Source: Neolewinella xylanilytica
GTDB lineage: Bacteria; Bacteroidota; Bacteroidia; Chitinophagales; Saprospiraceae
Direction: 5' to 3'
Assembly: GCF_002934605.1 (NCBI RefSeq)
Contig: NZ_PTJC01000005.1
Location: 620,001-684,000, forward strand
Length of the DNA: 64,000 nt
Part shown: positions 29,571 to 47,067 of the stretch, in pieces
How the letters are laid out: each line of letters opens with the position of its first letter
How positions within the stretch are numbered: position 1 is the first letter of the stretch
Notes under the pieces: model-generated
The model's input: only the letters and a program-made list of their open reading frames with translations
Told to the model about the DNA's origin: nothing
Databases searched by the model: none
Program-made: the position numbers and the translations under genes

Positions 29571-29641
29571 TAGGGATATGTATTGCTTGAAGTAAGTAAG
29601 AGAAAACGAGGATTGCTACGTACCCCCTCCTGGGACTGCAA

Positions 29642-29760
29642 AAGCCTGTAGCCCGCCCTTCGGGCTGTAACAGTAAGCCCCACCTCCTTACCAAAGCGGA
29701 GCTTTGTACGGACGTGGGGCTTATTGTTTCGATCACCTGCGGTGATCGGGCCACAGGCTT
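29642..29760 (-). ncRNA. Three-arm structured element abutting tRNA-Ser
   Basis: The outer arms AAGCCTGT (29642-29649) and ACAGGCTT (29753-29760) close a junction with three helices: AGCCCG/CGGGCT (29650-29666), a 13-bp stem with one G-U (29671-29683 with 29714-29726) carrying an inner stem CAAAGC/GCTTTG (29692-29706), and GATCACC/GGTGATC (29731-29747). It begins three bases after the tRNA 3' end on the minus strand and ends in a short T tract (TTTTGC), so it may act as tRNA trailer or terminator. No known family was recognised. Confidence 0.55.
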
Positions 29761-29763
29761 ATG

Positions 29764-29850
29764 CGGAGGATGAGGGATTCGAACCCCCGGTACCCGTGAA
29801 GGTACACCTGATTTCGAATCAGGCACGTTCAACCACTCCGCCAATCCTCC
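29764..29850 (-). tRNA. tRNA-Ser (anticodon CGA)
   Basis: An 87-nt class II tRNA. Acceptor arms GGAGGAT and ATCCTCC, D-arm, anticodon stem CCTGA/TCAGG with loop TTCGAAA (anticodon CGA, codon UCG), a long variable arm (GTACC/GGTAC) typical of serine tRNAs, and T-arm GGGGGTTCGAATCCCTC. Discriminator G, as expected for Ser. CCA is not encoded; CAT follows. Confidence 0.95.
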
Positions 29851-30018: not shown

Positions 30019-31146
30019 ATGTATACGGAGGAGTTTGCCGCCGTAGCGCTGAGTCGCGTGTCCGGTATAGGTCCCGTTGTGTACCGTCAGTTGCTGCGGC
30101 ATTTTGGTAGCGCGGAAGGAGCGTTGACGGCGGTGGCCCGGGAATTGTCGGTAGTTCCCGGCGTTTCCCGGGAGCTGGCGTCGCGCATCGGTGCCGCTGC
30201 TCCAAAGCGGGAAGCCGAGGCGATACTCGAATTTTCTGTAAGGCATGGGGTACACATTCTTCGGGCGGGGAGTGAGCGGTATCCGGCGACACTACGGAAT
30301 TTCGAGCGGGCCCCGGCTATCCTTTACCACCGGGGTAACACCGACCTGAGCCGCCGCCGCACCCTGGCCGTAGTAGGAACGCGGCGCGTAAGCCGGACAG
30401 CCGGTCAGCAGATAGAGCGGCTGTTGGATCCGCTGGCTGAATACGATCCCCTTATCGTCAGCGGACTGGCATACGGAATCGATACGGCAGCTCACCGCAG
30501 GGCGCTGGCACGGGGCCTCCCGACGTTGGCGGTTCTGGGAAGCGGGCTACAGTACGTGTATCCCTACGCCAACCGTAAGCTGGCCGAGGACATCTGCCGG
30601 CAGGGTGGGGGAGTACTAACCGAATACCCCCCCTGGGTAAAGCCGGAGCGGGAGCATTTTCCTGCCCGCAACCGGATTGTAGCCATGATGGGGGAGATGA
30701 CGCTTGTCGTAGAATCGGATGTAAGTGGCGGGTCCATCATCACGGCAAACATGGCGCACGAGCTGGGGCGAAAGGTAGGTGCGTGCCCGGGTCGCGGAGG
30801 AGACCGTAGCACGGCCGGTTGCAATGCCCTGATCAAACAGGGGAAGGCATTCCTGATTGACGGTCCGGAAGACATCGTCCGCCTGTTGGCCTGGAAGCCG
30901 GCGGCCGAAGGGCGGAAGCAGTTGCAGCTCTTTCTGTCGCTCCTTCCGGAAGAACGCCAGGTAGTCGATCTACTGCAGGAAGAAGCAAGCGGAAGCCGGA
31001 TTGACGAGCTGAGTACCAAGTTGCAGTGGCCACCCGCCAAATTGGCGAGTCGCTTGCTAAGCCTGGAAATGCAGGGTATCATTTCCGCATTACCCGGACA
31101 ACGGTACCGGCTATCGGCTTCCGGTTCTTTCCCGGGCCTACCATAA
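30019..31146 (+). CDS. dprA: DNA-processing protein DprA
   Basis: A 375-residue protein. An N-terminal SAM/HhH-like region (1-75: ALSRVSGIGPVVYRQLLRHF), then the Rossmann-like DprA core (about 90-295) with VVGTRRVSRTAG, SGLAYGIDTAAHRRAL and the ESDVSGGSIITANMAHELGR stretch, then a C-terminal winged helix (about 310-370). DprA loads RecA on incoming single-stranded DNA during natural transformation and is also found in organisms not known to be competent. No other competence gene is adjacent. Confidence 0.95.
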   Translation: MYTEEFAAVALSRVSGIGPVVYRQLLRHFGSAEGALTAVARELSVVPGVSRELASRIGAAAPKREAEAILEFSVRHGVHILRAGSERYPATLRNFERAPAILYHRGNTDLSRRRTLAVVGTRRVSRTAGQQIERLLDPLAEYDPLIVSGLAYGIDTAAHRRALARGLPTLAVLGSGLQYVYPYANRKLAEDICRQGGGVLTEYPPWVKPEREHFPARNRIVAMMGEMTLVVESDVSGGSIITANMAHELGRKVGACPGRGGDRSTAGCNALIKQGKAFLIDGPEDIVRLLAWKPAAEGRKQLQLFLSLLPEERQVVDLLQEEASGSRIDELSTKLQWPPAKLASRLLSLEMQGIISALPGQRYRLSASGSFPGLP

Positions 31147-46735: not shown

Positions 46736-46812
46736 CGGGATGTAGCGCAGCCCGGTAGCGCGCGTCGTTCGGGACGACGAGGCCGCTGGTTCGAATCCAG
46801 TCATCCCGACCA
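46736..46812 (+). tRNA. tRNA-Pro (anticodon CGG)
   Basis: A 77-nt tRNA: acceptor CGGGATG/CATCCCG, D-arm GCGCAGCCCGGTAGCGC, anticodon stem CGTCG/CGACG with loop TTCGGGA (anticodon CGG, codon CCG), T-arm CTGGTTCGAATCCAG, discriminator A, and an encoded CCA end (46810-46812). Confidence 0.96.
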
Positions 46813-46953
46813 AAGACGATGGAGCCAGTACGCGTAGCGTGCTGGCTCTTGTCGTAGGGAGGAGCGGGGAAGACGAAGCGCAGCGCAGTTTACCCCCTCC
46901 CCCTACGACAAGCGCCCCGCCCGGAAGGGCGGGTAGGCGCGATGGTCTTTGGT
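46809..46953 (+). ncRNA. Three-arm structured element abutting tRNA-Pro
   Basis: ACCAAAGAC (46809-46817), which includes the tRNA's own ACCA end, pairs with GTCTTTGGT (46945-46953). Inside lie three arms: GAGCCAGTACGC/GCGTGCTGGCTC (46822-46848), a long arm TTGTCGTAGGG/CCCTACGACAA (46849-46911) extended inward by GGAG/CTCC and GGGG/CCCC, and GCGC plus CCCGCCC/GGGCGGG with a GGAA loop (46912-46940). The architecture parallels the element after tRNA-Ser. Function unknown. Confidence 0.55.
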
Positions 46954-47067
46954 GCCCCACCCGGACCTAAGCGTCCGGAATCGGGTCATGCTTTCCGCGG
47001 CCACTACCGCTATCCTGGGACCGAATGGACCATAAGAACCGACTTGCACGCCGTTCATTGGACCTCA

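Follow-up and report, generated by a model that had tools for sequence, protein, structure and literature searches.

A conserved three-arm structure directly behind tRNA-Ser(CGA) of Neolewinella xylanilytica and arrays of copied tRNA 3' ends in related bacteria

The window analyzed here is a stretch of 64,000 nt from Neolewinella xylanilytica with two tRNA genes detected by ARAGORN, tRNA-Ser(CGA) on the minus and tRNA-Pro(CGG) on the plus strand, and it raises the question of what kind of element lies directly behind the first of them. The initial annotation had described a 119-nt element with three arms and a closing stem of 8 bp. The element is real and its arms are laid out as described, with a fold z-score of -9.1, but the closing stem had been drawn too short, as the predicted fold gives 13 pairs plus three outer pairs. 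The features of this locus are:

29763-29850 (ARAGORN) or 29764-29850 (Rfam tRNA), minus strand: tRNA-Ser(CGA), the upstream partner
29642..29760, minus strand: three-arm trailer element of 119 nt, directly 3' of tRNA-Ser(CGA), with homologues carrying compensatory changes
29760-29748 with 29654-29642, minus strand: closing stem of 13 pairs (predicted fold)
29764-29762 with 29638-29640, minus strand: three outer pairs that include the discriminator base of tRNA-Ser (predicted fold)
29731..29747, minus strand: arm 1, short, GATCACC-GCA-GGTGATC, a GATC stem with a C(GNA)G triloop (fold and alignment)
29669..29728, minus strand: arm 2, long, interrupted by an internal loop whose 5' side is GUA here (fold and alignment)
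29655..29665, minus strand: arm 3, GC-rich, GCCC-GAA-GGGC (fold and alignment)
29628..29637, minus strand: linker, C-rich in relatives (by eye)
29600..29627, minus strand: degenerate hairpin GGGGGT-ACGTAGC-AATCCTC, T-arm-like by eye, followed by a T-rich stretch; a terminator-like pattern and candidate transcript end

The 145 nt from 29764 to 29620 fold at -87.4 kcal/mol versus a mean of -50.25 (sd 4.09) for shuffled sequences, and 0 of 200 dinucleotide shuffles did as well. Concerning known families, the tRNA alone reaches the gathering thresholds of Rfam 15 in the window; the same holds for seven loci (L031 and L032 among them), where RtT was unlisted even at an E-value of 1. The sX4 model gave sub-threshold scores of 38.5 and 42.5 versus 70 bits over tRNA plus element. 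On the other side of the tRNA, the plus-strand ORF 30019-31146 adjoins tRNA-Ser(CGA); we take it for DprA by eye, and some relatives appear to have a similar neighbor (also by eye).

A DNA search with the element and its tRNA as query covered 40 genomes, including the own one (G000). Of the 21 genus genomes, nine gave a clear match to tRNA-Ser(CGA), the other 12 being without such a match in this search. A homologous three-arm element follows the tRNA in six of the nine (G000, G001, G004, G011, G016, and G020); it was not found behind the same tRNA-Ser(CGA) in G008, G012, and G017, where the site holds a plain terminator-like hairpin (G008, G012) or a different hairpin (G017). Alignment of the six sequences (A2) revealed changes on both sides in 27 of 55 consensus pairs, against 13.0 (sd 2.3) after shuffling, with 93.6% of cells paired versus 78.2% (sd 1.4) and a covariation score of 0.501 versus 0.190; on each of five measures, none of 500 shuffles was as high. 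When pairing partners were slid by 1-3 columns, 3-7 double-change pairs remained, a control that favors the unslid version because this alignment also supplied the consensus structure. Since homologues in relatives hold the fold through compensatory changes, the element goes beyond chance. It is followed by tandem partial copies in G001, G004, G016, and G020, as also in G109, and by one degenerate remnant (29608-29627) in the window; at Ser-CGA the copy of the tRNA 3' end amounts at most to a T-arm-like hairpin, as judged by eye.

A structure that acts as RNA tolerates G.U pairs on the transcribed strand, and such pairs become A.C mismatches on the opposite strand. In the shared helices of 12 elements, G.U pairs number 28 on the tRNA strand versus 4 on the opposite one (two-sided binomial p = 1.9e-5, an optimistic value because the elements are related), and the tRNA strand gives the better fold in 12/12, in a set collected and trimmed by hand of which six were chosen partly for folding on that strand. 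The six Ser-CGA elements, which were found by DNA similarity, give G.U versus A.C counts of 12 to 1 (summed per element). Additionally, the model R1, for which the six Ser-CGA trailers were the sole training set, scores higher on the tRNA strand in all seven elements outside its training set. From the bias of G.U over A.C, we take selection on the fold to act probably at the RNA level, inside the tRNA transcript. A cruciform acting at the DNA level was also considered and is disfavored by the wobble asymmetry. The arms are not equally plain at every locus: the predicted fold of the own Ser-TGA trailer is without a closing stem, although R1 still gives its arms, and in that of the G015 Pro-GGG element arms 1 and 3 pair together in place of the plain three-arm shape.

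Application of R1 led to elements behind other tRNAs. The window element, itself a training sequence, matches at E = 2e-22. Among 150 scored of 1,079 candidates in the own genome, matches below E = 0.01 were confined to the Ser-CGA element (on both strands) and a site just past tRNA-Ser(TGA), and with these two tRNA-Ser loci only, a dispersed genome-wide repeat was rejected. Three further matches had E-values from 0.3 to 4.7, of which C3:57861-57976 looks coding-like by eye. An unfiltered run was made on six loci, chosen because their trailers looked three-armed. The trailers outside the window are:

C2:1809378-1809508, own genome: tRNA-Ser(TGA) trailer, R1 E-value 7.2e-5
L078, own genome: the same tRNA-Ser(TGA) trailer, 37.3 bits on the tRNA strand (unfiltered)
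L109, G015: behind tRNA-Pro(GGG), 69 bits on the tRNA strand (unfiltered)
L058, G002: behind tRNA-Ser(TGA), 59.7 bits on the tRNA strand (unfiltered)
L098, G002: behind tRNA-Pro(GGG), 53.9 bits on the tRNA strand (unfiltered)
L116, G006: behind tRNA-Pro(GGG), 47.1 bits on the tRNA strand (unfiltered)

All six loci, including L087 of the window, score lower on the opposite strand. R1 scores reflect shape as much as letters, since the wrong strand of the training elements reaches 35-67 bits from its inverted-repeat shape alone. In another genus, G109 has a match behind tRNA-Arg(TCT) with 46.2 bits sense versus 42 antisense and the long arm first, and a weak partial match (E = 0.004), inspected by eye, lies behind tRNA-Arg(TCG) in G022. 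Whole-genome searches at E = 0.01 listed matches in 6/21, 2/120, and 2/20 genomes, and absence from them means little because they missed L109, L058, L098, and L116, which the unfiltered search finds. As MAFFT could not align Ser with Pro elements, claims across loci rest on R1 and on the internal loop of arm 2.

This loop is GU/UAA in several relatives, with the variants UUA in G004, GC in G020, and GUA in the window, and is missing from the Pro-GGG element of G006 and from the Pro-CGG element of the window. Although the stems change, the loop is largely kept in Ser-CGA, Ser-TGA, and two of the three Pro-GGG trailers. A strict scan for GU/UAA between paired stems, which misses the G004, G020, and window variants and others, found seven places in 671 kb of fetched DNA, six of which fall within three-arm elements or partial copies of these; each of twelve other loops had 0-3 places in the same scan. 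As the loop recurs, a protein or another RNA could conceivably bind there.

The initial annotation had assigned a trailer of the same type to the second tRNA gene of the window, whose features are:

46736..46812, plus strand: tRNA-Pro(CGG) (ARAGORN, Rfam)
46813..46951, plus strand: three-arm trailer of tRNA-Pro, a possible divergent relative, fold z -7.4
46952..46990, plus strand: C-rich linker, hairpin, and a possible remnant of the tRNA-Pro 3' end (AATCGGGTCATGC against AATCCAGTCATCC; by eye)

This trailer is indeed three-armed in its predicted fold. That it is of the same type as the Ser trailer is doubtful, as the arm-2 loop is absent and the R1 score lies near noise: L087, the window Pro-CGG element, gives 20.3 bits sense (E = 0.0024 when 17 kb of selected loci were searched) and 8.9 antisense, and in L088 a wrong-strand match overlapping a tRNA reaches 20.6 bits, which places scores of about 20 bits near noise. 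In the own-genome search at E = 10 it did not appear among the 150 scored of 1,079 candidates. Concerning the Pro-CGG trailers of relatives, the first arm of the window element is common only to G001 (L088), there without a closing stem. The three Pro-GGG elements (G002, G015, and G006) have as their first 40 nt a hairpin ending in U5, which resembles the terminator hairpins or trailers of relatives. In G012, one match of a search pattern falls in a coding-like region.

The contrary picture, in which other tRNAs are without the element and relatives have unrelated sequence, is only partly borne out. Of the 39 tRNA matches in the own genome, whose trailers were all read by eye, 36 are without a three-arm trailer; the three multi-arm ones are Ser-CGA, Pro-CGG, and Ser-TGA, the last without a clear closing stem and counted as having one. 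The rest bear terminator-like or other hairpins, or run into the next tRNA or gene. Yet a homologue is present in six of the nine genus genomes with a clear match to tRNA-Ser(CGA), the own one included. Both these 36 trailers and the absence from the same tRNA in G008, G012, and G017 indicate that the element is dispensable.

Among the other trailers of the own genome, L086 (G000:C2:592300-595400) comprises six tandem units of ~103 nt behind tRNA-Met(CAT), each with the tRNA-Met 3' half, a hairpin in place of the T-loop, and a terminator hairpin, an array which we take to be much like the rtT of Escherichia coli. A copied 3' end also follows one own tRNA-Gly(TCC). Several smaller observations belong to the same genome. 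A degenerate tRNA-like copy with an altered T-loop lies behind a tRNA called Gly(TCC), between real tRNA genes (L003, in the tRNA cluster of G000:C2 near 1053300). L006 and L021 have similar sequence with GCTTGTTTGGGTTT and AAAATRAGGCA, then a hairpin, near two tRNAs; in L006 the GCTTGTTTGGGTTT-type sequence is on the upstream side of the tRNA, and the pair looks like another repeat family. Short repeats resembling TAGTACGGTAG and TTTAGTC adjoin tRNA genes in L017, L079, L012, and L025.

Copying of tRNA 3' ends is clear in Pro, Met, Gly, Ser-GCT, and other arrays. At least one downstream copy of the last 18 nt of the tRNA (up to 3 mismatches) was present in 22 of 197 distinct 3' flanks, a sample biased toward Ser and Pro genes and high-scoring tRNAs of few genomes, some of these from other families. 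An intact T-loop is missing in 52/53 copied tails, the sole intact copy being a full tRNA-Glu gene, and in the copies inspected it is replaced by a longer insert that often forms a hairpin. One such form, TTCGAGCRCGNAGYACRCGAC, was searched in genomes of 84,980 species, a search that may leave out records of the own genome, and was found in 16 places. Six are in genomes of the Lewinella group or Phaeodactylibacter, all behind tRNA-Pro, with Neolewinella lacunae and Lewinella sp. W8 among the Lewinella-group matches; the other ten come from unrelated organisms, and the stretch examined there contains no tRNA. In L187 the tail after TTCGAGCRCGNAGYACRCGAC looks like tRNA-Ser by eye. Another hairpin, GGATCA..T[AC]ATCC, occurs behind three-arm elements. 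It has 12 places in 681 kb, and 11 lie within 1200 nt behind a tRNA, a count raised by the fetched DNA being centered on tRNA genes; four of the 11 are in the G109 array and two in that of G015. For each of eight control motifs, 0-5 places were counted. Because two inner pairs were demanded, the search picked up only one Ser-CGA place. Finally, the array behind tRNA-Pro(GGG) in G015 (L164 / L109, on C6) consists of three units that are alike, one three-arm unit of 357 nt after them, and then further unlike units with the same tRNA-Pro tail; G006 and G002 are similar. Regarding the tRNA-targeting repeat that had been proposed as one meaning of the element, the arrays bear out the copying of 3' ends in relatives, with mobility as no more than a conjecture.

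Regarding termination, the closing stem of the Ser-CGA element ends in 3-4 U in most species (CUUUUGC here) and has no U run in G011, which makes it a poor textbook terminator. A scan for GC-rich hairpins followed by at least 5 T in 8, with loops of 3-8 nt and hence blind to a three-arm apex, had no match inside the element; it placed a terminator-like site at 29627-29608 on the minus strand, 14 nt past the closing stem, one of two in the region (both strands) versus 0.8 expected. In the window element, the closing stem could act as a weak terminator at most, and arm 1 does not qualify as one.

Taken together, genome comparison indicates that the fold is conserved, has a strand bias suggestive of RNA, and is linked to tRNA genes, and that relatives carry partial copies in tandem. 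We give a probability of about 0.5 to the reading in which the element is a structured, co-transcribed tRNA trailer that helps to end the transcript, bounds the mature tRNA, and has grown by duplication. The Ser-CGA element would be the 3' trailer of the tRNA-Ser transcript, a four-way junction with three arms starting at the mature tRNA 3' end. Once transcribed, it would form a compact knot abutting the tRNA, help RNA polymerase to stop, and mark the 3' processing boundary; a processing enzyme would then cut the tRNA from the trailer, which would persist as a by-product or as a minor RNA in its own right. By inference, we favor a combined role as compound terminator and processing boundary, on account of the Pro-GGG hairpin with U5, past which the polymerase would have to read for the three-arm fold to form, and of the weak Ser-CGA stem with its T-arm-like hairpin and T-rich tail at 29627-29600. 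Within this bacterial family, such elements would make up a set of rtT-like trailer arrays that expanded as the tRNA 3' end and its terminator hairpin were duplicated in tandem and in inverted orientation.

The conserved arm-2 loop counts against a terminator, which needs no conserved internal loop, and its retention while the stems change is what speaks for a regulatory RNA, in which the released trailer would act in trans, as an RNA sponge or with a protein at this loop, at a level set by tRNA transcription. Most elements are also followed by a C-rich linker (by eye), and 3'ETS-LeuZ (PMC6191717) and the rrA/rrB/rrF RNAs (PMC8144298) offer precedents. Such a role is nevertheless rather unlikely, since some relatives are without the element and the loop itself varies and is absent in G006. 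Mobile cassettes added at tRNA 3' ends by integron-like, site-specific recombination, each unit ending in the host tRNA 3' tail with a hairpin ahead of it at the former T-loop position, would account for the unlike units sharing one tail in G015 (similarly in G006 and G002), for the near-universal loss of the T-loop in copied tails, and for the clustering of GGATCA..T[AC]ATCC behind tRNAs. We consider this improbable, as the fetched DNA was tRNA-centered, 6/11 motif places come from two arrays, near-identical neighboring units also fit unequal crossing-over, and the three-arm part has a G.U bias indicative of RNA. A broader version appears doubtful: an undescribed set of tRNA-linked RNA cassettes with three arms, a hairpin mimicking the T-arm, and the host tRNA 3' tail, expressed as trailers and spreading among Ser, Pro, and Arg tRNAs and among genera, with the T-loop replaced so that copies cannot act as tRNA. 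Finally, strand switching of replication at hairpins may make perfect inverted repeats, and thereby apparent co-variation, without selection. The very long and often perfect stems, the repeated terminator-like hairpins inside Pro-GGG elements, and the C(GNA)G loops, which are especially stable in DNA, would suit such neutral palindromes; they are quite improbable here, because neither the G.U excess nor an arm-2 loop common to several loci is expected of strand-symmetric repair.

The structured trailer remains our preferred reading, and it bears on how tRNA trailers are seen. Bacterial tRNA trailers are usually treated as plain terminators, and some in these related bacteria carry elaborate, apparently selected RNA structures and repeat arrays. 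No such arrays in Lewinella or Saprospiraceae were described in the titles and abstract openings, with few subscription papers, that our literature search covered. An undescribed class of tRNA-linked RNA, as initially suggested, agrees with a structured element at several tRNA genes in more than one genus for which Rfam recognizes only the tRNA, and is qualified by its likeness to a kind of trailer already known, that of rtT. Compared with intrinsic tRNA terminators, the element occupies the same place and its closing stem has A- and U-rich ends, like the plain hairpins of G008 and G012, but it differs in its three arms, recurring internal loop, and weak U-tract. In possible use, the nearest systems are 3'ETS-LeuZ and the rrA/rrB/rrF RNAs (PMC6191717, PMC8144298). 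The former is cut from the E. coli glyW-cysT-leuZ tRNA transcript as its 3' trailer and ends in a terminator (PMC6191717); here there is instead a large covarying four-way junction with no known RNA partner. The latter occur in E. coli rRNA operons between the dual terminators and are made by passing the first terminator of a stable-RNA operon (PMC8144298), which the Pro-GGG elements recall in starting with a terminator-like hairpin, although they belong to tRNA operons.

No test made here places the element inside the rtT, 3'ETS-LeuZ, or rrA/rrB/rrF group. In layout, rtT RNA is the nearest. It lies behind tyrT of E. coli, and the likeness consists in the position directly behind a tRNA gene and in tandem units that copy the tRNA 3' end, as in the arrays at Pro, Met (in the own genome too), Gly, and others. 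Unlike rtT, the elements described here stand at several tRNA species in several genomes; to our knowledge, neither the three-arm fold nor T-loop replacement is a known feature of rtT. The puzzle of rtT-like repeats is hereby opened to comparison, including the reasons for the copying of tRNA 3' ends and for the loss of the T-loop, and whether the trailer RNA has any role.
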